A stretch of DNA of 64,000 nucleotides from Bryum argenteum (Eukaryota; Streptophyta; Bryopsida; Bryales; Bryaceae). The notes below the pieces were generated by a model. The model was not told where the DNA came from. It searched no databases and was given only the letters and a program-made list of their open reading frames with translations. Location: contig CM073329.1 in assembly GCA_037043015.1 (NCBI GenBank), positions 5,224,648 to 5,288,647 of the forward strand. The letters run 5' to 3'. The position numbers were made by a program, and so were the translations under genes. This document shows positions 1,237 through 42,899 of this stretch, one piece after another (the stretch's first letter is position 1; every line of letters starts with the position of its first letter).

Positions 1237-1242
1237 AAACAC

Positions 1243-2460: not shown

Positions 2461-2463
2461 TAC

Positions 2464-7989: not shown

Positions 7990-8149
7990 ACTAAAGAATC
8001 CCAGCGTTCTAGCACCAAGAGCACACAGAAATGAACTTTCCGTGGCCACTCTATATACTTATGTAATATGATCTCTCAACCACTCGTTTGTCAACCACTC
8101 CTTTGTCAGACAATATCTACTTGTCAGTAGATCATAATCTCCCACGAAG

Positions 8150-8330: not shown

Positions 8331-8639
8331 AGCAAGCTTAGGGTCCGCCGGTGTCATACATGGTGAGCCGGCGCGGTGGGATCCACATTTGGGTGCTCCC
8401 CGTACTTTGCCGGCCCATGACCACTCGCGGCGGGTGCTGGGCTGGTGGCAGTAGACACATGGAGGTGCCGGCGGTGCATGCTCGGCCCCCCTTTCACGGC
8501 CACTGCCGGCACTTTGCTGCGCAGCCGGCCATTGCCGAGACTTGAGCAACACCTCCATATGGATGCCGGGACTTATGAGGTGCTCGGTCTTGCTTACATG
8601 CCACTCTACTGACGTCCAGCACATGCTTATATTGGCCGG

Positions 8640-9721: not shown

Positions 9722-10010
9722 TTGATCCACAACAGCAAGAGTAAGAATTTTCGAATGAGAGAATGAGATGGCCAAGGACTTGCTTTGAGATGGTTGCAAA
9801 CCTGCTCTTCCATTCTTGTATATACCAAGAGGGCACCGGATTTCATTGATCTCACTTCGGAGTCCAATCCAACCTCACCAACCCATCTTCACATCAGTGG
9901 CAGCGCCGACCGGAGCGGCAGCACCGGCAGCTTTGGCAGAACTGTACCCTCCAAGGCACCGACATTCCTCCAACGAATCGGAATCGGACACTTCACAGCA
10001 CCGACACAGC

Positions 10011-12627: not shown

Positions 12628-13249
12628 CTAGGGGAAAAAAAAAAACAAAACAAGACACACTGAACGCACTGTCGAAAATCTCTGTGTAAGGACTGTAGTC
12701 ACTGTGCGTACAAAAAGGAGGGCGGTGAATTCTGGTGTTCTTGAAACCCCGGCTTCAGAAAAGCAGGTAAACGGTGTTCGTCTTAAGATAAGGTAGATAT
12801 CACTCTTTAATGCGTCGGCATTATTGGAGAGATACTGGAAGCAGAGTAGGTGTCCAATGAACGTTTTAAGCTAGTCATTACTGAGTCATTTCTTTGTGAC
12901 AGTCTACTTATTTTCCTCAAAGAGTAGTCATAAATTGGATTAGGCTGAAAGGGTACTCATACAGTAGTCACCACTTCGTTTTCCAATTCTACGCAAAGTA
13001 TATATCTCTAGTTTCAGGGTTTTTATTTAAAGTTTTCGTTCATATGTTGCAGTGTATGTTGTAGTAAACTAAGTTGTACGATGAGACAATAACACCTGTA
13101 TTATGATATTGATTCCTCATTTTACAAAGTCTCTTCATATTCATTTAAGGTTCGGTAACATGATCGTTATCAATTTCTTGGACCCACGCAGGACATTTTC
13201 CATTTATAGGACTTATTACATATGGAGAGTTAACCTCAAGTCTTCAATT

Positions 13250-16200: not shown

Positions 16201-17042
16201 GCAATTCCACAAGTGACTTCGAATTGGACGTATGCATGGATGCCGGTAGATTAGTGCAAGGTCTGTGCACCGCAGAATGTAATGATAAATGAAATGTGTG
16301 TGTATACAGGGATTGGGAAGCAGAAGTCGAGTTGAGAAGCGACACTCCAGCATTCGAGGATTGGATTGTACAGACTCTGGACAGGGAGATCGTGCAAAAT
16401 TCCGACATCGACATTGACATGCTGTGTGTGAGCAGAAGGCCGAAAAACAAGTGTTTGAGGTATGGAAGAATCAAGGCTTTTGGAAACCATTTTAGAGTGG
16501 ATGATAACAACGAGATCATAATGAAGACATACGATTCTGGGGTGGCAACCGTTGCTGATGATCCAGTTTTAGACGCAAGGGATGTGTCTTCAATAAATTA
16601 TGTAGGTGTCTTGAAAGACATATTGAAACTGGATTATGGACCAGTTCGGGGTCCCATAATCTTACTTAGGTGTGAGTGGATCAAGAAATTCGACAATCGC
16701 AACAATCCAAATACGTACGTCAGGGATGAAAGTGGTTTCTTGATGGTCAACTTCAAACACAAGCTCCCGAAAATGCAAGATCCATTCATATTTCCGAGTC
16801 AGGCCACTCAAGTTTTCTTCTCAGACGATCGAAAGAAACCAGGTTGGAAGGTAGTACTACGGAAAGATCCAAGGGCACGTCGGGAGGTGGTAGATTCTTC
16901 AGATGTCTTCTATTCGACGTCAGTGAACACTGTGCACTTAATGACTCCGACGGTAATACCACCACCGCCTGAAGTCCCCTCATTGGAAGGAGCCGTCGAG
17001 TTGACCAACGAGGACCACCTCTTAGCAGTAGCAGCATATTAA
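13250..17042 (+). pseudogene. CACTA (En/Spm) transposase, three exons, one in-frame stop
   Basis: Exons 13,250-15,085, 15,246-16,147 and 16,310-17,042 join in phase (GGAAG/GTTAGT...GAGCAG/GA; TTGCG/GTAGGT...ATACAG/GG), giving 1,157 codons. The N-terminus has the transposase-associated domain (YCPCWSCKGGKK). An acidic linker and the TNP2 domain follow (VNPFKQMRSSWSTWPV, then LWTIHDYPGYG and GCPYCG). LDVMHCEMN lies across the first junction. DUF4218 (PLALRGLLKPG, LPYHIVQELDICGPVSTRWM) and C-terminal DUF4216 (GVLKDILKLDY) complete it. A TGA at 15,375-15,377 replaces a sense codon between RRGI and RHLWL. The other domains are undamaged. No upstream CACTA terminus was found. Confidence 0.85.
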
Positions 17043-17371: not shown

Positions 17372-17381
17372 ACTCACAAGT
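17372..17381. repeat. Target site duplication of element 2, left
   Basis: ACTCACAAGT directly precedes the left terminus of element 2 and recurs exactly at 37,530-37,539 after the right terminus. Ten bases fits the 8-11 bp typical of Mutator-like elements. Confidence 0.85.
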
Positions 17382-17475
17382 CAGGATTGCTACGGTGCGT
17401 GCAGTGAGCAGATTTCCATGAGCGGTGAGCAGACTTTCATGAGCGGTGAGCAGATTTTCGTGAGCAGTTTTCCGT
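17382..17475. repeat. Left terminal inverted repeat of element 2
   Basis: It begins CAGGATTGCTACGGTGCGTG, followed by GAGCAGATTT and TGAGCGGTGAGCAG repeats. The first 27 bases align without gaps with the reverse complement of the right end, with an identical CGGTGCGTGC core. Confidence 0.85.
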
Positions 17476-17711
17476 TTCTAGAGGGAAGTTTTGACTGAGT
17501 TTGGGTCAACTTATTTGGATCAATTATGAGGGTTCTTGCTTTTAGTTGAAATAAATTAGACGTTGCTCCAATTTGGGTTGAATAATGAACGATATGATGA
17601 CTAAGAGTTTAGAGAAGGAGTGTGTAAAACCGTGGTTTAGGGTGCCTATGACCGTGACATATTACTGTTTAGACTGGAACGTCTCTAATTATGTTTTATA
17701 GGAATTAGGGC

Positions 17712-18896
17712 TGACGTCATATATATGGTAGTTTAGAAACTTAGGGTTGACGTCATCAATGTGTTCTATTCCCCGTCTCAGTAAAATACCATAGTTTGGT
17801 AAATTTGTCGGATTTAAAAACAATGGTATTTTAAGTTTTCTAAAACACCATTTCCTTGAGTATATGGCATGTGGCTTGTGGTTTAGGGTTCAGGGAAAAA
17901 TTAGGGCTGACGTCATCATGGACATACAACAAAAATACATTGAAAGCAAAGAACCCTAAAGATCCATACTACATCCTCGGATGTAATGCGCCTCTTACGT
18001 AATTCGCTGCCCATACGAGCCCGACAAAGGTCGAACCGCGCCTTCGCTATGCAAACATAGTGTCTTCCCATCCACCTCATGAAATCTACATGTAGTGTTG
18101 ATTTCTAGGATTCGTCACTTTCACTGCGTGCACTTCACTCTACAAATTCTTCTTAAGGTGGTAGCTCAATATCTTGGAATTCGTGTTCGTAATAGTACTA
18201 CAAGCTTGGAATTTGTGGCCTTTCTCTATATTAACATAACATCAATTTTTTACTATTACGCGGTTTCTATTGTTATCAAAGATTTAGTTTCATGATTTAG
18301 TCTCATGATTTAGGACAATGTTATTTCAAGTTCTCCAAATCAATATTGAGTATTTGGCATGTGGCTTGTGGTTTAAGGTTTAGTTATATATTAAGGCAGA
18401 CGTCATCATGGAAATATAAAAAATACTCCACAAAATCCAAGAATCCTACAGATCCATACTACATCCTCGGATAGCGGCCTCTTACGTAACGCGCTAATCA
18501 GACGAGCACGACGAGGGTCGAACCCATGCCTTTGCTAAGCTAACATAGTGTCTTTGCATCCAACCCATGAGATTACATGTAGTGTTGATTTCTAGGATTC
18601 CTCAATTTCGTGGCGTGCACTTCATTCTACAAATTCTTCTTAAGGGGGTAGCTCAATATCATGGAGTGGAGTTCCTATTAGTGTATTTGTGACTTTTCTC
18701 TATATTAACAGAACATATCAAATTTTAACTACTATGCAGTGTCTATTGTTATCAAAGATTAAGTCTCATGATTTAGTCTCATGATTAAGGTCAAAGGTAT
18801 TTTATGTTCTCGAATTCACTATTGACTTGAGTATTTGGCATGTGGCTTGTGGTTAAAGGTTTAGTTATAAATTAGGGCTGACGTCATCATGGAAAT
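17712..18896. promoter_or_regulatory. Cluster of TGACGTCA (CRE/bZIP-type) palindromes
   Basis: Perfect TGACGTCA occurs at 17,712, 17,748, 17,908 and 18,889, and AGACGTCA near 18,399. In plants such sites bind bZIP factors. Three of the five lie in the repeated 485-bp unit, so their number partly reflects duplication. Confidence 0.5.
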
Positions 18897-19260
18897 ACAA
18901 AAAATACTCCACAAAATCAAAGAACCCTCTGAGATCCACACTACATTCTTGGATAGTGGCCTCTTACGTAACGCGCTGCTCACACGAGCACGACGAGGGT
19001 CGAACCCACGCCTTTGTTAAGCTAACATAGTGTCTTCGCATCCAACCCATGAAGTTACATGTAGTGTTGATTTCTAGGATTCCTCAATTTCGTGGCGTGC
19101 ACTTTGGTCTAGAAATTCTACTTAGGGGGTAACTCAATATTAGGGAGTGGTGTTCCAATTAGGGAATTTGTGGCCTTCCTCTATATCAACAAAGTGAATG
19201 TGGGTTTCTTGCAACTATGCAGTTTGGATTGTTATTAGAGCTTGAGTCTCATGATCTAGA
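17865..19260. repeat. Three tandem copies of a roughly 485-bp unit
   Basis: Units begin at TGGCATGTGGCTTGTGGT near 17,865, 18,355 and 18,836. Each contains a GACGTCATCATGG motif, TACGTAA, GAGCACGACGAGGGTCGAAC-like sequence, ACATGTAGTGTTGATTTC and TAGCTCAATAT. On the minus strand each has GGGTTCGACCC, resembling a pol III B box. The units are diverged, so the amplification is old. No protein is encoded. Confidence 0.85.
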
Positions 19261-19321
19261 GTGAGATTTTGTATTTGAAGTAGTTTTATTTGTATAAACA
19301 AAAGTCCTTGAATGTTCCTAG

Positions 19322-19457
19322 TTAGTCTCCATAAAAATCTGTTCCCACCAACATGCTATGTGCTTGAACACCTCGTCATAAGACCCCCAATCAAGCACAT
19401 AGCATGTAAGTGGAAACATTTTTTTTACGAGAGACTAGGTTTTCTATGGAGACTAAG
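19322..19457. repeat. Foldback hairpin / possible MITE
   Basis: The perfect 17-bp inverted arms ACATGCTATGTGCTTGA (19,351-19,367) and its complement (19,391-19,407) enclose a 23-nt loop. Outer arms TTAGTCTCCATA (19,322) and TATGGAGACTAAG (ending 19,457) extend the structure. It fits a tiny foldback element or a small-RNA precursor. Confidence 0.7.
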
Positions 19458-19459
19458 TA

Positions 19460-20010
19460 TGACACTTTTTAGTGGAGTACGATTTTTATGATCACATTTA
19501 ATATGTTCCCACGACCATGGATGGTGGTCAATTCTACACCGTTTTGAAAATAAGGCAATGCCCTCTCATTAAATTTTTAAAGCACGCTAAGTACCAAAGC
19601 GAAGTGCGAATGGGCCATTACGATGAATTCCTACTTCTCTTATGTAAGGTTCTATAATGCAACAATTGTGATGTTCAGTTTCATCAAGTCAATTCTTGGC
19701 CGTAATTCAAGCTTTTTCATCACCCAAGTTTAGAGATTCTCCAAAGGCATATTTTTATGCGACCTCTCGAAAGAAGGGTAATATGGTTATTTTTGTGGTG
19801 GTTATTTAGAATCGAGCCTCCTTGTAAGTGAATGGATTTAATTATATGTCGCAAATAAGAAGATATTTTGAACCCATTATGGCAGATGTGACCCATGAAT
19901 CGACTGAAATCCTTGGGGCGCGTGAGATGTCACCTGAAATCCTCGCTTGACGTGAAACGTAAGGTGATATGACGCAATGTAGTAATTGCATCTTGGATTA
20001 TCGAGGCGAC
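19460..20010. other. Gene-less stretch upstream of ADD gene
   Basis: No coding or RNA feature was recognised. A TATA-like CTTATAATATAG at about 20,012-20,023 marks the probable promoter of the ADD gene to the right. Confidence 0.45.
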
Positions 20011-20643
20011 CTCTCTTATAATATAGACCAGAAGCACCACGGACTTCATCTCTCACCCAAACAGGGACCGCATCTAACACATTTCTTAGTTTTTTCGACC
20101 AGCTGAGCATTTGAGCGATTTCCTCTATTTGCTTGATTGTAGTGACTGATTGTAGTGAGCGATTTTCACACCTCTGTCAACACAATGGGTTCGGAGATTA
20201 CGTCTTGGTGCTCGTATGCTCGAGGTTAGATTTGTCGGAACTAAACTCTCTGAATTGTAGTGAGATTGACTATCGTTGTATTGTGGCTGCCAAGCATTCG
20301 GAGATTTTCTCAGATGTGGTCGGGTTCACGAGGTTAGTGTCATCGGTGGTGTGGTTCGACAATGCTGTTTGCCTGTTTGACGCAATGAACTATTCCAAGT
20401 AGTCATCGTGATTCTAAATCGGACCGGATTCCTCGGAGCAGTGGTCACCATGTTCTTGCTGATTGGAGTTCACGTTGTGTAGCGATGGACATTAGTTTTA
20501 CCGTTTGTTTGGTGTGATGGAATGTTGGCATGTGCTTGAACGCTGTGCGCTGCCGAATATGGAAGAACTGACTGGATGTGGTCTTGGTAGAGCAACAATG
20601 TGTATCCGACAATGAATCTCGAATTTGCGCAGCAGTGGAGCCC

Positions 20644-21492
20644 ATGTTTCATTCACAGGTGCAATCGTGTACTGCTGCATCCAAAGAGTCCGTGGTTCTT
20701 TCAAACGAGATATCGAATGTCTCACAGCTCAGGTCAACTGAGCCAGCTGTATGGTGCACAGTGTGTGCTCAAGAGCTAATGCAAGTCAATGCGGTCAAAC
20801 TCCACCCAGATTTGGCCGTAATTAACCGGCCTCAACATTTGCCTGACGTGGAAACATCCGATTGGTGTTCGACAGACACATTACAGCCCGTAATGTCTAG
20901 TGTGCGGATGAAAGTTTGTAATATGGAGCTTTATGGATGAAAACCTCTCGTCCGGTGAATTACGCCCGGTAATGTGAGCCTCTCGCAGCGCCGGATCATA
21001 CTGTCGCAGCGCTCACGCGCTGCTCCATTACTCTCCGTAACGCTGCTCGAGGCCCCCATTACCTAGTCCGTAATGATGTGCGAGACCTGCTTGAATGCCT
21101 TGGAGGACAGACGAACGACCATGAACAACAACAAGAAATCAGTAAGTATTACATTTATTTGGTGCGTGGTGACATGTTAATGTAGTTGGAATCACAACTT
21201 GAATTTGGTGCTACAGGTCACGATGGATGGCATATGCTATTGGTGTGGATCAGATGAAGAGTTGAATGAGTGCAGCTGCTGCGATCTGGAGTGGTGCTTG
21301 AGGTGCATCCTCCGAAATATTGGTGACGAATCGCTGGTAGAAATCGACGAAGATTACTGGTGGACGTGCTTCGTATGCTCCCCAGAGCTCCTTCATGGTG
21401 TGAAAGACGAGCTAGATTTCTTCATGGATGTTGCAGCTGAGAATGGCCATGATGCAAATTGCAACCATGGCATTCTATTTAAATGTCGCTAG
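20644..21492 (+). CDS. ADD-type zinc-finger gene of element 2, three exons
   Basis: Exons 20,644-20,817, 21,067-21,141 and 21,217-21,492 join in phase. The introns are GCC/GTAATT...CCTAG/TCC and TCA/GTAAGT...CTACAG/GTC. The product of about 174 aa has CTVC...HPDLA then MMCETC (GATA-like half), then CYWC, CSCC, CLRC and CFVC (PHD-like half), followed by an acidic tail. All twelve cysteines are kept and the alignment with the 9,284 ADD protein is clear (WCLRCILRNIGDESL against WCAGCIARNKGDDYL). The start is uncertain: upstream exons at 20,185-20,400 are possible, because a TATA box lies near 20,015. A chromatin-reader role is inferred from the fold. Confidence 0.68.
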
Positions 21493-22033
21493 GAACTTTG
21501 TTAGTGTAGTCAGCGTGATGCCGTTTTGGACATCCAGGCAGCAAATGAGCAGTAGTAGTGAAAGACTGAAAGACGTGCCATAGATATGTAGACACAAATG
21601 TTTAGGTCCCAAGTACTTTGGCAGAACGATGCGGACGTGTTTTGATTTTCAAATTTTGATGTAGATACCTATTGTGAATATTTATTGTGAATAAATATTG
21701 TGAATACATATGTGATACCTAAGTAATATTAAGATTATGAGTTGGAAAAAATCCACACTCTTTCAAATTGAATTAGTAATTTGACAACTTCATTTGGTTG
21801 ATTTACAAGTGAGTGCGTGATCTCTCAAATCATTGATCTGTATGCCTATATCCCCCATGCCGCGAGCAGGGCGACGAGAAACCTCGTCGGGCAGCTGAGG
21901 ACCCCAATCACAAGGGGCTAAAGCAGTGAGGGTGCTATAACTGGAGAGTTATGGTAGAACTCAATGCTCACATTTTAAAAAAGCAAAGACAGGAGTCTTA
22001 ACAATATGGTTATAACATGCACTAATAGTTGGC

Positions 22034-25000
22034 TTATGGAGTTTCTGAGTCTGACTCTGCTGCACTTAAGTCAAAGTACTGCCTAACACGACTATGAATA
22101 CGAGGTGGTGGAGTTGGCCCATCACTAGAATCGGATATAACACTTGCAAACGCTCGAGCCGGAGATCTTTGCATAACTTGGGAGCCGGAACGAAGGTGAT
22201 GGGGTTCGAAAAGTGGCTTGAAATCCTCGTTTTACGGATGTGAACGCTGGACTCTTTAAACTGCAAGTGAAAGTAGTTTTGTTAGAAGTGAGGATTAATG
22301 AGGTCTCAAAAATAAAGACTTTGGGGTAACTTACTTACAGCAGGCCTCATACGGAGCATCGAAACCGGAGAATCTTCCATGTCGGTGACGCTTTTTTGCC
22401 GAGGAGTTTCAGTGTATCTGGAAGACCTTTTTGAAGAGGTACAAGAACCTCCTCGTATAGCTTGGTTTCACTCTCCATAGCGAATATGTTGCGGTTCAGA
22501 GTCATGGCTGCTGTCACGGACGATCCTGGTGTGGGGAGAAATTGTCAAATTTTTGATTCTGAGTGAGCACGACAGAGGAAAATGAAAGGAGTTTGAGCCA
22601 CTTACCCACTCCGGTTTTGAAGTCCACAATTGTTGCGTTCTCAGGACTAATTCCATGAATTAGTGTCTTCAAGAGGAGAGTAGACTTCTGCTTTGCACCA
22701 CGCCATGGTGTACCATCGGATTGCTTGCAGACAAGGTCATCAACTCCTAGAAGGTTGTACAGCATATCGTCGTGGGTAAGATCAACATCTGGAACGTATT
22801 GTGTGGGGTTGATATGAAGTGGGGTTGGCTGCCTTGCGATCTTCTTGTCGATTGAGCGAACAAGAAGAAGAGCTTTGAACATGTTTGTCTGCAAAAAGGT
22901 AAATCACATTGAGAAACTAGAAGCAGGTGCCATGGCTGAAGTTTAGCATCTAAAATGGGATGATAGAACATACCGTCTTTGATTTGTTGACATGGCTGGC
23001 TAGAGGAAGTGTTTGAAACACGTTCCATTCGTCATACAACTTCAGCTTGTAGTTGTTGAAATAGGACACTATTTCCTTTTTGATTTTCGCTGAGTCAGGG
23101 TAAAATAGCAACATCACGCCGTCGTCATGCAAATACCTTGCTGAATACTGCATAACACTCTTCAAGAAGCCAACGTTTTGCTGGTTCCAATTCGGAACAG
23201 CTTGTGGTGGATCAGAGACACCAGGCACCCTCAGGCCGTCTGGATAATCAGCTATGATGAGATCGACTGCTATAATGGGCTCTGTACTCGGCTTCATCAG
23301 CTTGCCATCTTTGAAGAACGTCCTCCCTTGCACAACCTGTTAGCCAAATTGGAAAAGTCAAAAACTAGGTGATAGCTACAATTCCAAAGAGTATGGAATC
23401 GATGACATACCTCAGCCAAGAAAGATTTCATGTCGTCGTATTCCTTTGGAAAAGGCTGTTTCATAGATTTCAACTCCATCCAGCGCACAATGGAATCATT
23501 GACGACGAGGCAACGAGCGGTGGATTTGGTGCGACCTTGTTGGGGATCCACCATCATTCGCAACATAGAGTGCGGGCAATGCTGGGTAGCGGGGCCAGGA
23601 GACTCGCTGGGGCCGTGCTTGGTGCGTTTCGGCCGTGATGACTCTCCAGGGAGGTTGAGGGGCGTCACACAGCGTGGACGCTCGGCTGGCTCGACTTCCT
23701 CGTCTTCGTCTGAATGAGGCAACTGAAGCGTTCGTTGGCGATGTCGGGTCAGCAATGGCACATTCACCTCTCCAAGCTGAGATTCAGGGGGAGTCGAATC
23801 TTGAACCACTTGGCTCTGAGTAAGCGCAACATCCTGAAGCGCTGCTGATTGCCTTGGAGTTGGCTGCGGTCCTGGCGTAGGATCTGCAGGTGCTGGTGTT
23901 GTAGGAACAGGGGCTGGAGCTGGATTGTCAGGAGGTGCCTCACCCTTTCTGAGGCGCTTCTTTGACTTCTTCTGCTGTGGTGGAGGCGTGGTATCCTCGA
24001 CTTTGTCCAAGTCAACGACGTCTTTGCTAACATTGCGAAGCCTGGCTCAATGCGGTTGAGTCGTCCAACTCCCAACTTGGGCATTTGTTCCTTTGGCGGT
24101 CAAATACCACCCACAGAAATCAAAGTGCCGACGCCCGTACATTGATTGGATAGCGGTGTACATGCACGTGTCCCGAGTAGGATCATCCGATTCTCGAAAT
24201 ACACCGGAAGCTTCAAGATTGCTTTATTTGGAAGCAACACGTGCTTGAAGTAGCGGTATAAAACTCGACGACTTGCCTCTTTGAATCCAAGTTGGGCCTC
24301 GGCTTTGTAGCCCTTGTAGATGCCAAGCGAGGTGGGGTCTTTGGGATCCACTTTTGGGCGGAATTCTCGGTAGAACGCCGGAGCCCCAGTCCGCAGCGCA
24401 TCCGCTCTACGTAGTCCTCGATTGTCCGAATGCGCTCTCGACCCTCGGGTTCGTACTCAACAATGACCTTCAACGTCTTGAGCCCCAACTACTTGGGTTT
24501 GACAATCTTCCGAGAGCCGCACAAAAGGGAAATCCAGTTGTATTAGGCCCTCAACTCGCTTCCAAATTCAGAATTGTCAATGATATAAGGATTTACTGTG
24601 CCTTAAAGTTGCCTTGTTTAAGAACGTGTTGAATTGCTCATCCGAGAACTTCAATTTTGGGAATTTCAGCTCCTCCCTCGACTTGGGGTCCCAGTTCCAC
24701 CTATCCAACCAGGTGAGCTTGAGTTGATGTCCATTGCGGTGGTTGCCAACGAGTACTGACTTCTCGATGAGCATCTCGGGGGATGAAATTTTTCGTAATG
24801 CTCCTTCACCTTCTCAATGAACTTGCCTTCGTATTTGTCATCACACATAGGAAGCAACTTTTTTCATTTCACGTTCGGTACCTCTCGCGGCCGATACATG
24901 CTTGTGGATGTATTCGTTGATCCCCCGCCCACCCCAGTCGTCCTTATCGGGAAATTCTTCTCAAAATTCTTATTTTGCCTCGTCGTGACCTACGATAAAT

Positions 25001-26213
25001 CACTCTGCAAGTAAACAAAGTGAATTAGTGATGAGTTCTCTAGTGTATGTTAAGTTTCCGGACTCGTTTGAATACTAACCTGGTGAAGGAAGTTCGTGAG
25101 CCTCAGAATCGTAAGCGAGAACCAAGTGGTTCCACTTTTAGCCTCGACTTTGGAATAATCGCTTGTGACACCAAGCCCTTGAAATATTCAAGAGGCTTCT
25201 TTCCAATCGCATCTGATCGGTACAACTTGTGCACTGATTCTCTCCTTCACATTTGTTTTGATTGCGCTTTGAGAAAACATTTGATGAATAAGGTCCAGAA
25301 ATGAGATAAACTTAGGAGCGTTGAAAGAAATTGGAAGAGAACTTACTGATTTATGTCATACAGCAAGGAGAGCGTATCCATAATTCTACCCCTGACGTCC
25401 AAAATGATACAATCAACTGAAAAGTGCCACTCAATATCGTGAGGATGCTTCTTGTTGATGATTGGTAGCCAAGCTTGCAACCTGTGATTGCCATCCCAAA
25501 CATTAAACATTTTGTTTGAGAATTGTTGCAACACTGGATCTGCAGTCAATTTGGCCTCAAACTCATTGTTGACAGCACGCCAGTTGTCGCTCCAGGACAA
25601 AACGTCGTCCTCAGTGACGTCATGGGACTTAGATTCGTCGTCCTCGATTGCGACGTAGAAAAAGCAAGCAGATGCCTTCAATATATCCTCCATTGACAAA
25701 TCGCTTTTGAAGAAGTTCGATGTCATTCTTCATTGCTGGTCGAACAGCTGTTAACCCCTTAAGCCTGCAGAGAGGAATGGTCAAACGAGACTTCTCCTTG
25801 GGTTTGAAACGAAGTGAGTCAACACGGGATCCAGTGCACAGCCTCTTCGCTTACAAGACGCTCCAACTTCTCTTCGACCTCAGCCCCCGTCAGGGGAATG
25901 CTATTAACATCCACCGCGCCCTCAGCTGTTTGCGTATCTGAAGTAGAGGGTCCAGCATGATGCACACTCTGCTCAGCTGAGTGCGTCTCCTCAGCAGGCT
26001 GTGTAGCGTGAACCATTCTGGGCTCAACTGCGCCAGACACTTCACCAAGCCCTCCACCTTCAGTTCTCTCCTCAGCGGGTAGCTTGCCCTTATCCTGCCT
26101 CATGGATGACAAATGCTTCTCGCTTCGCTCAGCTGGGGCATCGTCATCCCCAACTGATGCTGGTTTTCTCTGGGGTATCGGTGTTGAGTCGTGCTCATGC
26201 TCATGCTTTTCAT
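22034..26213 (-). pseudogene. ParB-like domain plus beta-class DNA methylase-like protein, frameshifted
   Basis: The first visible exon starts at 26,213 after TTTCTCCAG; earlier exons are unknown. Domain order: a disordered N-terminus; a ParB/Srx-type fold (RLTIPLCRLKGLTAVRPAMK, 25,780-25,720, then WDGNHRLQAW near 25,500); a middle region of unknown fold; a Pro-rich basic linker (24,000-23,600); and a methylase domain. The methylase has motif IV-like DLIIADYPDGL (about 23,240), the motif X-like RGAKQKSTLLLKTLI, and motif I DFKTGVG/SSVTAA...FAMESE across the 22,606/22,525 junction. Methylase exons are 23,336-22,974, 22,888-22,606, 22,525-22,339 and 22,260-22,034. Single-base frame shifts lie near 25,830, 25,670, 25,110, 24,850, 24,770 and 22,400. 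The SAM pocket looks kept, but DPPY is replaced by DYPD, so activity is doubtful. No eukaryotic family name comes to mind. Confidence 0.72.
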
Positions 26214-26399
26214 CTGGAGAAACAAAATAGTCACGTCAGTACATATGGATTTGACTAAAAACTTGGGACCAACTTGTTTGACGTTGCTATAGTAATGGAG
26301 CTCATTCCAGTGAGGGCAGGGAATGAGAGCTGAAACATATGGTCTTTGAACTTGAAGCTGACAAAGGTTGATGATTCTGAGGTGCAAAAGTCGCCACTA

Positions 26400-27345
26400 G
26401 AGGCCCCTGGAAGCCATTGTCGGGTGCCAGGCCACCTCCCAGCTGCCTTGGGACGCCTGCGTGGGGGCGGGCCTTTGCTTGCCCTAAGCACCCCGTCGGG
26501 CGCCCGACCCTCAACACTGCTGCTTTGGGGCGCTGGCGTGGGCGCGCGGTGGCCGGGGCTTGATTGCCATGCGGCACCCCGTCGGGTGCCCGACTCCAAC
26601 CGCACCTTCCGGGGGGCGCGGCATGGGCGGGCGGGCGTGTCAAGAAGGCTCTTGTCACCCCATCCGGTGCCCGACCCCTCCCCGATGGCCTTTGTGCTAA
26701 GGCGAGTGGGCGGCCAGGCGGGTGCCTGTGGCGGCCTGGCGGCACCCGTCGGGTGCCCGACCCCCTCAACTGGGGCCGTGGGGCTCTGGCGTGAAGGCGC
26801 GACCCCGGAGGCCCCTAGCACCTCGTCGGGTGCCCGACCCCCTCCACTCGGGCCGTGGGGCTCCGGCTTGGGGGCGCTGGGGGCGCGACCCCGGAGGCCC
26901 CTGGCACCCCGTCGGGTGCCCGACCCCCTCCACTGGGGCCGTGGGGCTCCGGCATGGGGACGCTGGGGGCGCGACCCCGGAGGCCCCTGGCACCCCGTCG
27001 GGAGCCCGACCCCCTCCACTGGGGCCGTGGGGCTTCCACGTGGGGCCGCTGGGGGCAGGACCCCGAAGGCCCCTGGCACCCCGTCGGGTGCCCGACCCCC
27101 TCCACTGGGGCCTTAAGGCTCCGGCGTAGGGGCGGGACCTCGGAGGCCCCTGGCACCCCGTCCGGTGCCCGACTTCCTCCATGGGGGCCGTGGGGCTCCG
27201 GCGTGGGGCCGCTGGGGGCGCGACCCCGGAGGCCCCTGGCACCCCGTCTGGTGCCCGACCCCTCCATTGAGGCCTTGGGGCTCCGGCGTGGGGGCGCTGG
27301 AGCGGGACGTGAAGACCACATAGCGCCCCGTCGGGCGCCCGACCC
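26400..27345. repeat. Satellite 1: about 12 units of ~83 bp with a 14-bp palindrome
   Basis: The core GTCGGGTGCCCGAC, a perfect palindrome arm pair around TG, recurs near 26,499, 26,580, 26,747, 26,827, 26,911 and 27,082. Variants sit at 26,662, 26,997, 27,168, 27,246 and 27,330. The rest of the unit is GC-rich (CCCCTCCACTGGGGCCGTGG, CGCGACCCCGGAGGCCCC). Long frames on both strands are repeat artefacts. It lies just 5' of the methylase-like gene. Confidence 0.92.
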
Positions 27346-27615
27346 CCTCCCTAACTGTAAAAAGTCCCTGCAAAGTATCATAACAAGCTTAGTTTCGGTA
27401 CAGATCGACACGATTGGCACACTCGGGTACTCGAGGGGGTCAAAATCATACTATTTACCGCAATTCTTTCCATAAAAGTGCAAACTCGAATGCAAAATTG
27501 TACGCTGAGGCCATTTAGAGCTGAAACACATACAAATCTTAGGGCCAGACTAACCTCATTGGATGCCAGATTCGAGATAAGAATGTGGCAGTCGATTGGC
27601 GCATACAGGACGAAT

Positions 27616-27870
27616 TCAAGCTTGGGACTCCATGAACTGTCTCAGGCGCCCTATCCCGCCTTGAGTTCTGATTGCAACATCGAGTGGTAAACCGTCTGAG
27701 TAACCCTGTTGTCCACCAAGTGGGGGAGGGCGTTGGCAGTAGAGGTCCACTACTGGGGCGGTCGGGCACCAAAAGGGGTCAAATGGGAAGCATTCGCTCC
27801 ATAAGTTTATGACTTGTGCAAGACACTCCGTCACCACACCTCGCAAAAGCTGTATTTCTTTGTTAGCAAA
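27616..27870 (-). CDS. Unidentified possible exon upstream of satellite 1
   Basis: The minus frame includes VVTECLAQVINLW, CFPFDPFWCPTAPVVDLYCQ and IRTQGGIGRLRQF, which reads like real protein (Cys, Trp and Pro spread, balanced composition). I cannot assign a domain. It could be an N-terminal exon of the ParB-methylase gene with the satellite in an intron, or a separate gene remnant. Confidence 0.3.
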   Translation of the reverse strand, partial: FANKEIQLLRGVVTECLAQVINLWSECFPFDPFWCPTAPVVDLYCQRPPPLGGQQGYSDGLPLDVAIRTQGGIGRLRQFMESQA

Positions 27871-27909
27871 CGTAACATGTTGAGTTTTTGTAAGGATCAG
27901 AAACATCAC

Positions 27910-28760
27910 TGATTGAAAATGTAGGAGGAATTACCTTGTCAAGGATTGGTCATTTGGCCATCTTTGCAGACTCTCATTCCGCCCTCGAGTTCATTTCTTG
28001 AGCTCCAATGACCGAGAATTGGACTTGAGCAGTAAATCAAATTAGGTCAATCTGAATTATATTACGGGGAATTCCTTCGATCATCTCCCGAGTCCTCTCG
28101 ATAGTCAATGAAGCAACCACGTTGAAACCAAGCTCGACCATTTTCGCGTTGCCTCTACTTCAACAAAAACTAGTTTATATGGATAATGAAACTCATTCAT
28201 GAGCTCCGGAGCGGAGTCAAAGCAAGAGCTCGAGGGGGGGAGAATAAGAGCGCGAGAGATCGATGGGAAGTGCGAGGGCGAGATCGCTGCAATTTCGAGA
28301 TCAAAGCAAAAGTGTTTATGAGCATTTACTTTGTAGTCTGCGTTTCTTGTGTCCTCTCATCTCGCCGTGTGTCATTTGGATCGGTCGGAGGAGGTGGGGC
28401 GTCGACCCCAAGGTTAGCCAACAATTGCAACATATTCAAAATTCACACCGACAACGAACGACCGATCTAATGTCAAGGTAACTCAAATTTTCTGCGATGA
28501 GGCTCCACGGGTGAAGAAACAAGTGATCGGGTGGAGCAAGAGAGACGGAAAAACGAACGAGAATGGCAATCAACGCAGCGGTGAAAAGAGGAGAGAAGAA
28601 AACAAAAGGTCTTTGGGGTTTTAGGTCAAGAAGAAGGTGCCGCGCCCGTCAAGAGGCGATGCGACGACCCTCCACTCGACGTGACTTTGGACTTGATGTG
28701 ACCCTCGACATGACCCTCCACTCGACATGTCAAATCGGCCGAAAAGGTACATTAAGGTCA
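27910..28760. other. Gene-less stretch
   Basis: No supported exon. The short plus frames at 28,186-28,480 have no domain and look like chance. Confidence 0.45.
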
Positions 28761-28772
28761 CATCGAACTCAC

Positions 28773-29188
28773 CAAATTCTTCTTCACTTCCCGAATCACC
28801 ACTTTCAAATTCCGCACGTTGGATTACAAAGAAGCCCCCAAAACAATCGGTCACAAACATTTCTCCCTAGAAATGTACCGTAATCGACCCTAAAACAATT
28901 ATTAACACAAAGAACAAGCGCAAGAAAATACGGAACACTAAAATTTAAACAGTTACCTCATCTGATGGTTCCTCGATTAGTGGCTGTTTCGTATACGCAC
29001 TTCGAGAATCTTCAGCAACGTTCTCTAGAATTGGCAAAAGAGCTTTTCTTTGTTTCTCCCATTGCACTTCTTTCATTGTCCTTGCGCGTCATTCGTCTCC
29101 TAGTACTCTTGTTCGAAAAGAATAGCCTCCCCCCAGCAACTCGCTTTCTACGCCGCTTACTTCGATCTACTTCTATTGCTTCCGGCAT
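28773..29188 (-). pseudogene. Gene A': element 2 homologue of gene A, 1-bp frameshift
   Basis: It starts at the ATG at 29,188 (MPEAIEVDRSKRRRKRVAGG), matching the basic segment and GGRLFFS of gene A. After GETKK the frame runs to a stop. One base out of frame it continues ALLPILENVAEDSRS, the counterpart of ALLPILENLGLDSQ in gene A, so one extra A lies in the run at 29,044-29,047. Exon 1 ends at GATGAG/GTAACT (28,957). An acidic exon (AEFESGDSGSEEEF) ends at 28,773 before GTGAGT. Position and orientation relative to the transposase are as in element 1. Confidence 0.65.
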
Positions 29189-29785
29189 CACAGACTACGA
29201 CAATGTGTAATGTCATTGGATGTGAAACAGTTCAGCAATGATTGAAGTTCTTTACCATGACACTTAGAATGGTGGAATTAGAACTACTGGCGGCGCTGTC
29301 TACTGAATTAACTACGTTCTCATCCCTGAAAGTACTATTAATTTACAAGTACTATACGAAGTTAGTGCTGAGCTACCATTTTAAAGATGTCAGTAAAGGC
29401 GACCTAAATGTGGTGTGGAGGCCTAGTTTCAAGAATGGGGCCATACAACTGGAGCTGTTACACATAAATGGTGGCCGACAGTATTTTACGCTCTCCAACT
29501 TTACTCTTTTTATTAGTTGTTTTTGCATGTCAAAGCCATTGACAATGTACCCAAGCCTCTCAAATGAGGTCGGGTTTAGACTGGGGCCAAGGCCAAATGA
29601 AAACTAATGCCACTTCCTGTTGACAAACAAAAACAATTATTCTGGCGCAAGATGGTAGGGCAAGGACTATATCCTTGTCTCTAATTGCTACAATTGGAGA
29701 CATAATTGGTTCATTTTCTATTCAAGGACGAGGGGAAGGTGGAAGCCCTCTTCTCAATGGGGCTGGCCTTACCCCCAAAACACCA

Positions 29786-29895
29786 TGATGCCCAATTACA
29801 AAAAGTGCCCTATTCATGATGCCCATGATGCCCAATTACAAAAAGTGCCCTATGCATGATGCCCAATTACAAAAAGTGCACTATTCATGATGCCC
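29786..29895. repeat. 38-bp tandem repeat, three units
   Basis: GATGCCCAATTACAAAAAGT plus GCCCTATTCAT recurs three times. It lies between gene A' and the transposase, in the shared divergent promoter region. Confidence 0.85.
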
Positions 29896-30296
29896 AAGAC
29901 TAAAAGATGTTGTGATCCAATTTCGGGCTGCCCCTTTCAATCCCCATGTCGTTCGAAGGTTAACTTCTACTAACACCAATGGGACAACTACTTTAAAGCC
30001 GGACTTACATGAGCGTTCCTTTCCATTTCCTTGCGGCAGTGTCAGGTCATTAAATGCTCATGCTTTCATGAGGGAGTGGGGGCTCTGGTGGATGCCACGT
30101 AGGATGCATTGGCCGTCATTTTCCCTTGGCGTTGGCCCAATAATGTGCCTCATAGTGGAGGACGATCCCCACCCTCAATGTCATCAATATCAGCTTGTCA
30201 GTGATCTTCGAACACCTTCTTCCTCCACCAAGCTCGTTCTAGTATTCTCTCCCTTTGCTGTTTTCCAAATTTGAACTTTCCCTATGATTGCCAAAC

Positions 30297-33200
30297 ATGG
30301 CAACAATTCGTGTTGAGGGTGGTCGAGCCCCCCTTCGGGTTTCCCCACAATTAGATGGACGAATTCTTGTCAATGCTAGAATGCTCGCCTTGAAGTTTGA
30401 TTTCAAATTAGACTCTATATTTCTAGAGGAAGAAGTTTACGATGATAGCGGCGCGCTGCTTTACACTGATGCTGTCATATGTAGTGCCAACTTAGAAGGT
30501 GGTGTTTGGGTCCTGAAACCCACTACTTACTGCTTGATTGGTGAGAGCACAGGAGTGCATCATCGCTCACAATCGCAGACAGTTGGTGCAACGGTCTTAA
30601 GTTCTAAGTCAGAGGCTGCTGTACACCATTCTCAAGTCCCTGAACCCTTGAAGTCAGATTTTGTAACTGTAGAGGAGTCCGAGTCGGAGTCTGCTTTAGG
30701 CAATGCGGAACTTGGGAAAGGTCTAGCTCAAAGTGAACTTCCAGCACCTGGTGGTACCTCAAGCCAGAAGCCACCATTGTCACCCGCATCATCATCTACC
30801 TTAAGTTCCATAGCCTGCATTCGAAAACTCCAGTTTCGTAAAGGAGCGAAGAGTGAACTTAGCAAGCTAGACCTAGATGCTTTCCAGCATTCTTTCGTTC
30901 ATTGGTTGCCCGCAGAATACAATGGCAACCACGCATTCGAGTTCCCTCCACCACCACCCGATCTCAAGTCTGGTCATGCTAGAAAGCTTTACGGGATGGA
31001 TAAATCTCATGACGGCCATGTGTGGTGCCATTCTAGTACTCGCAATATCCAAAATGATTTTGGATTAAGTTTCCGTTACGCTCCTTTGTGCGGGCCACCT
31101 CCGTTGTGAAAATCCCCAGTGTCCATTTCTTAATCGCGAAGGCCACATTGATAGTGTCAACGAAAAGAAGTGGGTTGGTCATGTGAAGGGGCAGTTCCTC
31201 GGCAAGATCCACCCCTTGAATTCTACATTGGTGTGCGCGATTTGTAGAGAGCCTCCTACCTGCGTGAAGTTCTGCGATGCTGTTATGTACTGGGTGACGG
31301 GTGGAGAGTCAACAACGCGTGCTTGTATACATATTGGGCATCATGATCACCCTGTTGCAAAGGGTGATTGCAGAGAATCACGTGTTCTACGTGATCGTCT
31401 TATTTCCGAAGCTGTTGATAGGACTCCAAAAGCCAGTCCGTCTTCCATAACAATGTCAGCAAGTTTAGAGTTTTTGGGGGACTTGCTACTTCGCGAGGAA
31501 GGAGAACCATCCATTCGGATGAGCGTACGAGAGATGCACGGGAGGTCATGCACAAGTTCGAGAGCTATACAACTCCAACTATTCGTCACAACATATCTCA
31601 GTTTAGACGAATGGGGAAGCGAGGGGTCATTGATGGAATATGCGAACTTAGGGGAACATCTCGGCCTTTTGTGCGGAGAATAGATTTCCAGGCCAAGGAA
31701 AGGACACTGACAAAGTGTTCGTTTTCAAGATGTCTGAGATTGGACCAGGTTCGGGCGTTGACCTCGTTCGACGCATGCAATCTGGGAATTTGAAGGACTC
31801 CTGGATCATGTTCGACCACGTCAAACGGATCAAGAATTACACTACGTTTGCTTGTCACGTTTACGACTCCACGTACGCGAAGGTTATGACGGTAGCCCTT
31901 TGCGACATGCAATCTGAAACACATGACGCACAGTCATACCCTTGGAGAATGCTGAACGAAGTTATGGCGCGTCATGGAGTCCATAACGTCAATTTCAAAG
32001 GTTTCATGGCTGACAACGCCCAAGCGAACTGGAACGCGGTTCGAGAGATTTACGGAACAGGGGACAAGACTGTGCCTATGAAAGACAAGGAGAGATCGTG
32101 TCTACTCCCTTTGGACCAAATGCATGCGGGGTAACGAATTCGACGTGAGCCTGGGCGCTCCGCAACGAACACAAGAGACTCGCTACACAATATAAGGACG
32201 CCGCCAATATGGACGAGGCCGAAACACGCTACCTTGCAATTCGATCGTGGTGGGTGTCAAGTGAAGGCATTTTGAATCGAATTTGCCGACCATGGAGTCT
32301 TGGCTCGCATGGTGGCATTTCCGTTATAGGCAATGGGAAGCTTCATGAATCTAGTAAGTCCGCTTTACCTAGCTATGTTAATTTCAATTGCGACGATTGC
32401 GGCCCTTCTTTCAACCTCATCACAACTTCATCTCTTGATGTTACAGATGTCCCCCGTTACACATGCCCCCCTCGTTAACATTTCAAATCTGAATCCCAAT
32501 ACCGATGTTTGGATTTAGTCCTAATGTTTATTTTGAATACGTGCGGGGACCTTAGCGATGACGAGAAATTTGAAATGCCAAGGTGCAATTTGGCTGAAAC
32601 CATCCATGGCGCTTGGTCCAAACAATCTGGTAAAGACGTTCAGGATATCTTCGAAGCGTCCGCGGATGATTTTGTAAGGGCATTCATGCAGTGCACACGA
32701 TACAACGCATTTCTACATGGTAACCGTGGTGGAACAGGACCGGACAAAGAGGAGCTCCGTTTTCGGCTTGCCAGTCGAAGTGGGAATCTGAAGACAATGT
32801 TCAAAGCCATGGAAGCTATTCCCGGAGCGAAGGACTTCTTAGTTGCCGACCCCAATTATGCTGGTGAGGAAGTTTTTGGATCAACGAAAAGGCGTCTTCA
32901 AGCGGAACCAGGTGCAGATGATGATTCCCATCGATTTGACAAAGTTAACTTCTCCCAGCCGAAGTACTCCAAAAGGAGAACACGATCGCAAGGATCACCT
33001 TCTACTCCTATTCGATTGGATGACGAGGACGTGGATAATCACCCAACTCCTCTGCAAGTTCCAACTTCACCCGTTGTGCATGTCACTCAAGTCCAGGAAG
33101 ATGACTGTGACAAAGCGAAATGGCACATCCGCCGTGTTCCAAGTAATAGCAATCCAACGTGTACTGGAAACCGGAGCGCTTCGAAGCAATGCCAGCAGAA

Positions 33201-33950
33201 GATCAGTGGACCTGCACCCACATTCCACGGCACTCGTCATTATCGCCCGAATAACCTCGACGTCAAGCAATTCTTCTACTTCTGCCCTGATGATCTACAG
33301 AGGTGTGTTAAAGGCCATCGCAGGAGGTGGATTACGGATCTAATTCCTGAAGTTCCAACCATTTGGCCGGTTCAGAAAGGGACGAACCTAACCATCCGTG
33401 AAGTCTTGGCACTTCAAGAAGCGGGGTTCCAGCTACAACAAAAACGTCCTCTGCCGGTGGAGCGTCAGTTTGGATCTAACCTTGCCATAGCGGATCAAAT
33501 TGATAGCATTCCCACCCCAACACAACCTGATAAGTATGTTACTGTGCGCAATGGCAAATCCTGCAAGCGGTTCCTCACTCGAAAGAACTCGGAGAAGCAG
33601 CTCGCACGGTGGGAGTCAGCAACACTTCTCAACGCGGAGATTACCCGGATCACCCTCATTCCTAGCCCAGGTATCGGAGCGAGTCATTGATTTGAAATCA
33701 ACCACCGGGTCGAGGAAGCGTGAGTATAAGATTACCATCGGATCATTCCCACCGCACTTGTATTGATTTCACGGATATGGCATTGCATCACAAAGGGCGT
33801 GGAGGGTGGTACAAGCGCAAGCACCTTTGCTACATTTACCGCATGGTATGTGGATTGCGACTTGAAGATGACGGCTCGTCAGCCACGCCACTCTAAGCTT
33901 CAACGAGATAAAGCGTGTGCTACTTGCGGGGATTGTGGATAGGATTCGAT
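30297..33950 (+). pseudogene. Mutator-like transposase, copy 2, multiply frameshifted
   Basis: It opens with MATIRVEGGRAPLRVSPQLD and stays in one frame to 31,109, giving the clean N-terminal sequence missing from copy 1 (Ser/Pro-rich linker, then GMDKSHDGHVWCH). Frame changes follow near 31,090, 31,540, 31,690, 32,110 and 32,280, with further ones near the end. The zinc-like part (CENPQCPFLNREG, VCAICREPP) and the catalytic core (FMADNAQANWNAVREIYG) are recognisable. 32,509-33,690 is again open (DLSDDEKFEMPRCNLAETIH onward). In the SWIM region the CKH triplet has become RKH (CGC for TGC) and the CTC is broken by a shift. It is the same family as copy 1, and element 2 therefore encodes no intact transposase. 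Confidence 0.78.
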
Positions 33951-34127
33951 TCATAATCGTGAGTCCGTGTTCACCTCATGTTCGTATCGGGAAGGTCTAA
34001 CTCACAACCTTCGGTGTTCATGAAGCAAAGTGGTTTAACCAACATCCCACTTACCAAAAAAAAAATGTTGTGACTCTTGGATGGATTTATTGAACGCTTT
34101 ATATTATGAGCGACTACTTAATTTCAA

Positions 34128-34560
34128 GTGACTTCTATTTCCCATACAAAAGCGAGAACTTGCAAACTCGCTAAAGTCGTCGCGCATTCGTCAAACCTTA
34201 TCCTAATTGACGCACCACACTCCGTCACCTTCGCCTTTCGGCCCACCGCCATCACTTTCAGGCCTCGCGTCCACGCCTTCACCATAGTGGACGCGCTTCA
34301 ACACACATCGAGGACGCGCTTCAACACACATCGAGGACGCGCCTCGCCCGCAGGGTGGACGCGCCCCCGCCACAACGGTAAAGACACCCCTAACGCTATC
34401 AGAACCCATGGCGGGTGCCCCACGCCCCCATAAGAGAAGCCACGGAAAAGCCTCCGGTAGCAACCGAAGGGGTTCTCATTGCAACCGAAAGGCTTGGGGC
34501 CGACACCCAAGAGGTGCTTCAGACCTCCCAAAGAGGGCATCAGCCAACACCTCAAGGGCG
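34128..34560. other. Gene-less GC-rich lead-in to satellite 2
   Basis: A short tandem AACACACATCGAGGACGCGC lies near 34,300-34,340. No coding feature. Confidence 0.5.
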
Positions 34561-34574
34561 GGTCCCGGCCCCCT

Positions 34575-36905
34575 TTAAGGGTTCTGGCCGTGACCCGAGC
34601 GGGTCCCGGCTACCACCCGTGGGATGTTCAGGCCCTGACCCGAGCGGGTCACGGCCTCCACCCCTAGGGAGGCTTAGCCTGTGACCCGAGCAGGCCACCA
34701 CCCCCACCCCAGGGGGTCTCTGGCCGTGACCCGAGCGGGTCACGACCCCCACTCCAGGGGGTTTCAGCTCGTGACCCGAGCGGGTCACGACCCCCACCCT
34801 GGGGTTTCGGCCGTGACCGAGCGGGTCACGACCCCACCCTAGGGGTTTCGGCCGTGACCGAGCGGGTCCCGCCGCCACCCTTGAGGGGTTCGAGGCCCCG
34901 ACCCGAGTGTGGTCACGGCCTCCACCCCCGGGAGCTTAGGTCGTGACCGAGCGGGTCACGATCCCCCCTGCAGGGTTTGGCCGTGACCCGAGCGGGTCAC
35001 GGCACCCACCTCGGGGGTTTTCGGTCGTGACCGAGCGGGTCCCGACCCCCACCATGAAGGGTTTCGGCCGTGACCCGAGCGGGTCACGGCCCCCACCCCA
35101 TGGGGTTTCGGTCGTGACCCGAGCGAGTCACGACCCCCATATCGAGGGTTTTCGGCCGTGACCCGAGTGGGTCCCGGCTGCCACCCTTGAGGGGTTCGCG
35201 CTCTGACCCGAGCGGGTCACGGCCTCCACCCCTGGGGAGGCTTAGGGCGTGACCGAGCGGGTCACGACCCCCACCCTGGGGTTTCGGCCGTGACCCGAGT
35301 TGGTCCCATTTTTGCCACCACCTGGGGGTTCAGGCCCTGACCCGAGCCGGTCACGGCCTCCACCCCTGGGGAGGCTTAGGTTCTGACCCGAGCGGGTCAC
35401 GACCCCGATCCCAGGGGGTTTCTGGCCGTGACCCGAGCGGGTCACGGCCCCCACCCCAGGGGGTTTCTGGCCGTGACGCGAGCGGGTCACGGCCCCCACT
35501 CTAGGGCCGGTTCTGGCCGTGACCTCAGCGGGTCGCGGCTGCCACTCCTAGGAGGGGTGCTGGCCTTGACCCGAGCGGGTCACGGCCTCCACCCCTGGCG
35601 AGGCTTAGGCACTGACGCGAGCGGGTCACGGCCCGCACCCCATGGGGTTTCTCGCCGTTATCCGAGCGGGTCACGGCCTCCACCCCTGGCGAGGCTTAGG
35701 CAGTGACGCGAGCGGGTCACGGCCCGCACCCCATGGGGTTTCTCGCCGTGATCCGAGCGGGTCACGGCCTCCACCCATGGCGAGGCTTAGGCAGTGACGC
35801 GAGCGGGTCACGGCCCGCACCCCATGGGGTTTCTCGCCGTGATCCGAGCGGGTCACGGCCCCCACCCTAGGGCCGGTTCTGGCCGTGACCTGAGCGGGTC
35901 ACGGCTGCCACCCCTGGGGGGGGTGCTGGACCTGACCCGAGCGGGTCACGGCCCGCACCCCAGGGGGTTTCTGGCCGTGACCCTAGGGCGGGTTCTGGCC
36001 TTGACCCGAGCGGGTCGCGGCTGCCACCCCTGGGGGGTTCTAGCCTTGACCCGAGCGGGTCGCGGCTGCCAACCCTGGGGGGTTCTAGCCTTCACGCAAG
36101 CGGGTCAAGGCCTCCACCCTTGGGGAGGCTCTGGCTGTCACCCACGCGGGTCACGGCCCCCACCCCAGGGGATTTCTGGCCGTGACTCGAGCGGGTCGTG
36201 GCTGCCACCCCTGGGGGGTTCTGGCCTTAACTCGAGCGGGTCACGGCCTCCACCCCTGGGGAGGCTTAGGCTGTGACGCGAGTGAGTCACGGCCCCCACC
36301 TTAGGGGTTTCTGTGCGTGACCCGAGCGGGAGACGGCCCCCATCCCTGGGGGGTTCTGGCCATGAACCGAGCGGGTCGCGGCTGCCGCCCCTTGGGGGGT
36401 TCTCGCCGTGACCCGAGCGGGTCGCGGCTAGCACCCGTCGGGGGTTCTCGCCGTGACCCGAGCGGGTCGCGGCTACCACCCGTCGGGGGTTCTCGCCGTG
36501 ATCCGAGCGGGTTGCGGCTACCACCCCTTGGGGGGTTCTGGCCGTGACCCGAGCGGGTCACGACGTCCACCCCTGGGCAGGCTCACGCTGTGTCGCGAGC
36601 GGGTCACGGCCGCCTCCCCTGGAAGATGGCTGTCATCCGAGCGGGTCACAGCCCGCACCCCAGGGGGTTTCTGGCCATGCCTCGAGTGAGTCCTCGCTGC
36701 CCCCCCGTGGAGGGTTCTGGCCATGCCTCGGGTGGATCCTGTCCGCCACCCTTTTCGAGATCTGGCCGTTCCTTGATCTGGTCGTGGCAACCACCCTTGA
36801 AGGGTTCAGGCTGGCTCCCGTCGGGTTCTCGGCTGGCAACCGTGGGGGTTCCGAGTGGCACCCGTGGGGGGTCCCGACTGACACTGGAGCGGGTTCCGAC
36901 CGAGA
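34575..36905. repeat. Satellite 2: about 50 units of ~45 bp built on an 18-bp palindrome
   Basis: The core GTGACCCGAGCGGGTCAC has perfect 8-bp inverted arms around AG and recurs roughly every 44-47 bp. Variable C/G-rich spacers of the type CCCCCACCCCAGGGGGTTTC lie between cores. Units decay at the right edge (36,700-36,900). Long frames such as 35,794-36,276 are artefacts of the period. It occupies the right subterminal region of element 2. Confidence 0.95.
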
Positions 36906-37436
36906 GGGACATTACCTTTGTGCCCCTGGGATACAATGGGTTCAACACGGAATACTGGTGTGCCACTGTGAACACGGAGAAACTGTTTCCCAAAGCTTTG
37001 TACCGCGTTGTGCGCCTTCAACAACTCCTGTGTTGATCTTTGTCGTATCCTAGTATTGCCTCCATCATTAGAACCCATCACAAAGTATTGATTTACGACA
37101 TTGAGCTTGCAAAGACTAGTACATGCAATTCTTCCGCTCCTCAAAGGTCGGTTTATCCTACTCTAAACCCGAGTGCCCTCGTTTAACGTCTTCACTTCCA
37201 TGATAATCCTTATTGCCATCTTTGATGAGCTTCTTCCTAACCGCACTATTGACGCCTAAAACCGTGGTCGCTATATGCCTTGAATTGATGCGTACAAGCA
37301 TTTTTATTAGAGTGATGGACTTCTATGGGAACTAGTGTACACGGTCATAGGACTATGTCATGAACAGTTGACCCTTTCGCCGTGGCCGTCTAAATTGACA
37401 ATTTGATTGCACTCTGTATAAATTACACTCAAAATT
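36906..37436. other. Gene-less stretch between satellite 2 and right terminus
   Basis: No coding frame or RNA was recognised. Confidence 0.5.
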
Positions 37437-37529
37437 CTGCTCATTGCTCGTGAAAATCTGCTCATTGCTCGTGAAAATCTGCTCACCGCTCACCGCTCAC
37501 CGCTCACCGCACGCACCGACACCACCTTG
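37437..37529. repeat. Right terminal inverted repeat of element 2
   Basis: It reads ATTCTGCTCATTGCTCGTGA, then AAAATCTGCTC, four tandem CTCACCG heptamers, then GCACGCACCGACACCACCTTG at the outer end. It is inverted relative to the left terminus. Confidence 0.85.
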
Positions 37530-37539
37530 ACTCACAAGT
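37530..37539. repeat. Target site duplication of element 2, right
   Basis: ACTCACAAGT, identical to 17,372-17,381. Confidence 0.85.
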
Positions 37540-42852: not shown

Positions 42853-42899
42853 GTTGAAGTAGCTCCCACTTGTTGGCAGCACCTAAGGAGGGTAGAGGA

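Follow-up and report, generated by a model that had tools for sequence, protein, structure and literature searches.

A spliced ParB-like and methyltransferase-like gene with an altered catalytic motif in a Mutator-like transposon of the moss Bryum argenteum

Results

We analysed a stretch of 64,000 nucleotides from the moss Bryum argenteum (GenBank assembly GCA_037043015.1, contig CM073329.1, positions 5,224,648 to 5,288,647; hereafter, the window), in which a DNA transposon with Mutator-like ends carries a broken, minus-strand copy of a gene that joins a ParB-like part to a part related to beta-class amino-methyltransferases (Table 1). The genome has five LEAFY-family matches, and next to the best of them a DNA-binding exon agrees nearly residue by residue with chain 4bhk, FLORICAULA/LEAFY HOMOLOG 1 (E 3.7e-72; next chain 2.7e-50), the Physcomitrium protein, in keeping with a moss host. 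An earlier note, made from the sequence alone, had described a ParB-DNA methylase fusion, spliced and enclosed by the termini of a Mutator-like element (MULE). The ParB-like fragments it quoted were found where it had placed them on the minus strand (LTAVRP in 25629-25850, WDGNHRLQAW in 25343-25729), and its methylase fragments were recovered on the same strand (motif IV in 22950-23339, motif X and the first half of motif I in 22514-22903, FAMESE in 22347-22544). Its placement of a spliced gene within such a transposon was borne out by the termini, by the target site duplication and by GT-AG borders, seen by eye, at the exons of the window copy.

The left terminus of the transposon reads CAGGATTGC... 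from 17382 and the right terminus, on the opposite strand, reads CAAGGTGG... from 37529, so that the two are inverted; the ends of the element are given as CAGGATTGCTACGGTGCGTGC and CAAGGTGGTGTCGGTGCGTGC. Among the best 40 matches to each end, the majority begin at 17382 for the left and at 37529 for the right. A perfect 10-bp duplication flanks six of the eight elements for which both flanks were compared by eye (the window element, the copies on contigs C7, C10, C5 and C2, and the second copy on C9), while none was found in that comparison for the copies on C6 and C11; for three others one flank only was compared. The window copy of the gene is broken, its ParB-like exon being split over shifted frames, and in the near-identical copy on C10 (L010) this exon stands in a single open frame of 296 amino acids (aa). 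About 246 bp at window positions 20822-21068 are missing from L010 and from another near-identical copy, L009, and are probably a small later insertion.

Intact genomic copies with the domain pair had been named as a check on the fusion. One such copy, L020, yields 1037 residues with no stop and with both parts present when its 7 exons are joined across 6 GT-AG introns, in a model whose exon 2 donor was picked by hand among three open donors and which leaves the start codon and the far 3' end outside; many co-linear pairs lie elsewhere in the genome.

Table 1. Features of the transposon and its genes in the window
Feature	Position	Strand	Basis or remark
DNA transposon, host of the ParB-like/methyltransferase-like gene	17382..37529	.	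20,148 bp; termini and duplication read
Target site duplication, left	17372..17381	+	ACTCACAAGT
Target site duplication, right	37530..37539	+	ACTCACAAGT; perfect 10-bp match to left
ParB-like/methyltransferase-like gene, broken copy	22034..26235 (outer limits approximate)	-	uninterrupted relative L020
ParB-like exon, frame-shifted	25343..25850	-	family profiles A2, A7
Methyltransferase-like exon, altered motif IV (ADYPDG)	22974..23336	-	aligned to DPPYG
Methyltransferase-like exon, motif X (PWRGAKQKS) and start of motif I	22604..22888	-	sequence reading, alignment
Methyltransferase-like exon, rest of motif I and motif II (LNRNIFAMESE)	22370..22523 (end approximate)	-	
Fragmented transposase-like gene, divergent from the ParB-like gene	30288..33766	+	no Pfam match; ORFs at 30288-33690
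Small cysteine-rich ADD/PHD-like open reading frame beside the methyltransferase end	21181..21492	+	weak zf-4CXXC_R1 (E 0.051)
G+C-rich tandem array, unit of about 86 bp, upstream of the ParB-like exon	26415..27350	.	
G+C-rich tandem array, 45-bp unit with 26-bp palindrome, downstream of the transposase reading frames	34579..36722	.	

The C-terminal part of the protein is homologous to beta-class amino-methyltransferases, and profile, hhalign and structural evidence agree with the motif order IV-X-I that the earlier note had read. The profile PF01555 matched all nine spliced domains at E<=0.01 (8 of 8 when the faulty L024 row is left out), with a score of 28.4 bits for the L020 domain against a cut-off of 26.7 and of 25.2 bits, slightly under that cut-off, for the whole L020 protein. 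Alignment to the methylase fold by hhalign gave an E-value of 2.3e-11, the top structural match was CcrM, with a Rossmann methyltransferase fold, and motif IV precedes motifs X and I as in the beta class. The canonical catalytic motif IV is lost and the residues on the S-adenosylmethionine (SAM) side are kept. At the position set by hhalign, the catalytic motif (D/N/S)PP(Y/F/W) occurs at none of the 20 loci read (L009-L028); 18 have D/E-x-P-D/E, and the aromatic residue is replaced by D or E in all 20 and by N in a metagenome relative. Most SAM-side residues are retained; in motif I, S or A takes the place of the first glycine in 5 of 9 rows. Because motif IV is DPPY at 0/20 loci, the earlier suggestion of adenine-methylation machinery on a plant transposon is unsupported as written.

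Close copies of the gene are under purifying selection. Among pairs with 0.15<dS<1.5, a small set of related pairs (25 of 241), the median ratio of nonsynonymous to synonymous substitution rates (dN/dS) was 0.09 for the ParB-like exon (9 of 91 pairs), 0.07 for the motif-IV exon (8 of 105) and 0.15 for the exon with motifs X and I (8 of 45). The lowest median thus belongs to the exon without DPPY, which argues for a kept function of the motif-IV region.

The ParB label given to the N-terminal part agrees with a conserved box and has weak profile support (best E 0.0021); sequence searches of Pfam and NCBIfam returned no significant match, nor did sequence and structural comparison with PDB, where a negative is no proof of absence. 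Run against metagenome and assembly data, a family profile recovered 264 proteins with E<=0.01, the best 120 of which all lack a Pfam domain. When these 120 were aligned with L020 and four further copies, the box V-W/Y-E/D-G-N-H-R proved near invariant (G in 124, N in 125, H in 125 and R in 121 of the 125 sequences); a G-x-x-R box is typical of the ParB/sulfiredoxin domain. The profile most often matched was the ParB-like partition protein phrog_1033 (11 of 125 sequences, the next profile reaching 4 of 125), although these matches are not independent, since the family members are related. A predicted model of low confidence gave no structural match, and its strand-helix order fits that of the ParB/sulfiredoxin fold. 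We regard the N-terminal part as probably ParB-like.

None of sixteen pattern matches in prokaryotic genome contigs was confirmed as a relative of the ParB-like part, its best match among phage and plasmid records fell short of significance (E about 1), and a full-length homolog search among the best 8000 candidates returned no match. A viral origin was rejected: none of 25 IMG/VR pattern matches to the ParB-like part was confirmed, and of 112 matches to the methylase part two were, namely L063, which holds a 243-aa methylase open reading frame (ORF) with DIPY, and L062, where the match falls in no ORF of 150 aa. The introns, the copy number and the diverged subfamilies led us to reject bacterial contamination and a recent capture.

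Each of the two domains matches at least 150 places in the 258.8-Mb genome, in several diverged subfamilies. Gene coupling was counted among the best 150 of 831 and the best 150 of 920 matches for the two gene domains, the best 150 of 987 for the transposase and the best 149 of 214 for the ADD-like ORF, so that all counts are lower bounds, and the shuffled means come from a control in which the lengths of contigs 4 and 11 were entered as approximations. A same-strand methylase match lies downstream of at least 82 of 150 ParB matches, at a distance of 1-8 kb with a median of 2.4 kb (shuffled mean 0.5). Of the 150 methylase matches, at least 58 have an opposite-strand transposase upstream (shuffled mean 1.8) and at least 41 an opposite-strand ADD-like ORF downstream (shuffled mean 0.3); of the 150 transposase matches, at least 15 have an ADD-like ORF (shuffled mean 0.6). 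Among 83 ParB-methylase pairs, a transposase accompanies at least 45, an ADD-like ORF lies beside the methylase in at least 33, and all four genes are present in at least 10. The number of matches per domain and the excess of ordered pairs over shuffles exclude chance, and coupling this far above shuffles indicates that the cassette is an old unit and not a single capture. The 44-Mb contig C1 holds 62 of the best 150 methylase-exon matches and 76 of the best 150 ParB-exon matches, above its share of the genome.

Open frames of the transposase-like gene reach 1222 aa among its listed matches, and no Pfam transposase model fits the transposase-like ORFs of the window element or of a neighbouring element. 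Cysteine-rich ORFs of small size border the cassette. The one beside the methyltransferase end has no ADD match of its own; it matches (E 9.5e-6) an ADD_ATRX-scoring ORF of the neighbouring element, in which two small cysteine-rich ORFs score with ADD_ATRX (E 0.0016 and 0.011), under the curated cut-off. This second element of the same superfamily spans the left edge of the window (1-9874), with a transposase ORF at 4768-6747, a SWIM-like finger at 6693-7181 (E 0.11), ADD-like ORFs at 7657-8058 and, on the minus strand, 9284-9874, and its ParB-methylase gene at C9:5217631-5220304 (L016), 4-7 kb left of the window. EnSpm/CACTA-type genes (Transposase_21, DUF4218, DUF4216) at 13085-17042 abut the left side of the transposon, and minus-strand gag and integrase ORFs at 40735-42882 presumably belong to a Copia-type retrotransposon, judging by their motifs.

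At 13 of 20 loci there are tandem arrays in the interval from 200 to 1500 bp upstream of the ParB-like exon; arrays cover 25.1% of that interval, compared with 4.6% elsewhere. Twelve of these upstream arrays were scored for palindromes, and two, both with 42-bp units, beat shuffles (p 0.025-0.03); we keep the upstream palindromes as candidate parS-like sites, a lead only. In the array downstream of the transposase ORFs, the 26-bp palindrome is GGCCGTGACCCG-AG-CGGGTCACGGCC. A palindrome of 24-26 bp was reached by shuffles in 0 or 1 of 400 trials when the unit was read as 45, 91 or 136 bp, and was no better than shuffles for the 22- and 114-bp readings.

Discussion

We favour, at a probability of roughly 60%, the view that the gene supplies the transposon with an accessory protein that binds DNA and has a methyltransferase fold lacking the standard catalytic motif. 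On this view an autonomous Mutator-like family has long carried the gene beside its transposase while the subfamilies diverged. The ParB-like part may bind element DNA, possibly at the terminal regions or in the upstream tandem arrays, and the methyltransferase-like part may bind SAM or read DNA without carrying out standard base methylation, by analogy with METTL14, which serves METTL3. Together with the small ADD-like proteins, the protein could aid the transposition complex or the escape from host silencing. A more elaborate version, which we regard as speculative and rather unlikely, is an element-encoded chromatin system in which a ParB-like loader would sit on array sites, the methyltransferase fold would use a new motif for catalysis or SAM sensing, and ADD-type fingers would read host histone tails, shielding the element from silencing or marking it for transposition.

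Several observations weigh against an accessory protein of this kind. The putative DNA binding of the ParB-like part is read from a motif and weak profile matches; the link between gene and arrays is positional only, and palindromes in 10 of the 12 scored upstream arrays were no better than shuffles (p 0.18-1.0). The selection estimate is built on few, related pairs, and five of the 25 usable ones, all distant, have dN/dS of 0.34-0.59. The strong selection seen in the motif-IV exon might just as well signal catalysis by the changed motif, and the protein might then be an active DNA amino-methyltransferase, producing N6-methyladenine (6mA or N6mA) or N4-methylcytosine (4mC or N4mC) with a non-standard motif IV. 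Directed to the element by its ParB-like domain, such an enzyme would let the transposon mark itself. The kept SAM-side residues and the low dN/dS of that exon fit such an enzyme, the ADIPYG of the viral-contig methylase ORF implies that the second motif position can vary, and the authors of the Ectocarpus study predict N4mC or N6mA for a like protein (PMC12477816). We nevertheless think it unlikely, given an acidic residue at the aromatic position of motif IV in every locus, N there in the metagenome relative, and the loss of the first glycine of motif I in 5/9 rows.

That the ParB-like part is a nuclease or another enzyme of the ParB/sulfiredoxin superfamily, and that the protein cuts or processes DNA beyond binding it, is improbable: the conserved GNHR box, whose N and H are invariant (125/125), and the strand-helix order of the low-confidence model would suit it, but no profile or structural match to a superfamily nuclease was obtained in what were weak tests. 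We give very little credence to a passenger origin by a single capture of a host or bacterial gene fragment in the manner of Pack-MULEs, for which one subfamily with one origin and neutral decay would be expected. In its favour are the broken window copy and, at some places, an end repeat only some 1 kb away from the ParB-like exon, which suggests internal deletions; but gene order with the transposase is constant across diverged subfamilies, the gene is under purifying selection, an uninterrupted copy of 1037 aa exists, and the prokaryotic pattern matches held no confirmed relative of the ParB-like part.

With its many natural copies, the family lends itself to the question of whether transposons bring their own epigenetic tools, and the changed motif IV cautions against taking such genes as proof of 6mA in plants.

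The transposon resembles MULEs in its inverted termini, in a duplication length that falls within their range of about 9-11 bp, and in the weak SWIM-like finger that follows the transposase ORF in its related neighbour; it differs in its extra genes and in a transposase that matches no Pfam model, and because none fits, the Mutator-like label rests on duplication length, termini and finger. With phrog_1033 partition proteins the ParB-like part shares the profile most often matched in its family, but at a modest best E-value, and the moss-transposon family is spliced and eukaryotic. With beta-class amino-methyltransferases (CcrM, RsrI and phage DNA methylases; PF01555) the C-terminal part shares fold, motif order and most SAM-side residues, but it has mostly D/E-x-P-D/E in place of DPPY, PWRG before motif X and several introns.

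The closest published system is Sola1-1_Ec32 of the brown alga Ectocarpus, a 21.5-kb element encoding, opposite its transposase, a 1104-aa protein with ParB-like and N4mC/N6mA methyltransferase domains; the same paper states that similar proteins are reported from green and red algal transposons (PMC12477816). The kind is thus already known from algae, and the novelty claimed in the earlier note was overstated. Among the papers listed in literature searches, no title concerned a moss example of such a protein. Judged from the description of Sola1-1_Ec32 (PMC12477816), the two systems share both domains in one protein of about 1.1 kaa (at least 1037 aa in the moss, where the ParB-like label is weak), its position on the strand opposite the transposase and an element of about 20 kb. 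They differ, in a comparison by description, in the moss host and the 10-bp duplication and, as far as that description goes, in the lost motif IV and the adjoining ADD-like ORFs. The moss case adds a land-plant host, high copy number and evidence of selection to the algal ParB-methylase accessory proteins, and what looks new in it, apart from the host, is the combination with ADD-like ORFs, the placement in a Mutator-like element and the loss of the catalytic motif from a protein under selection.
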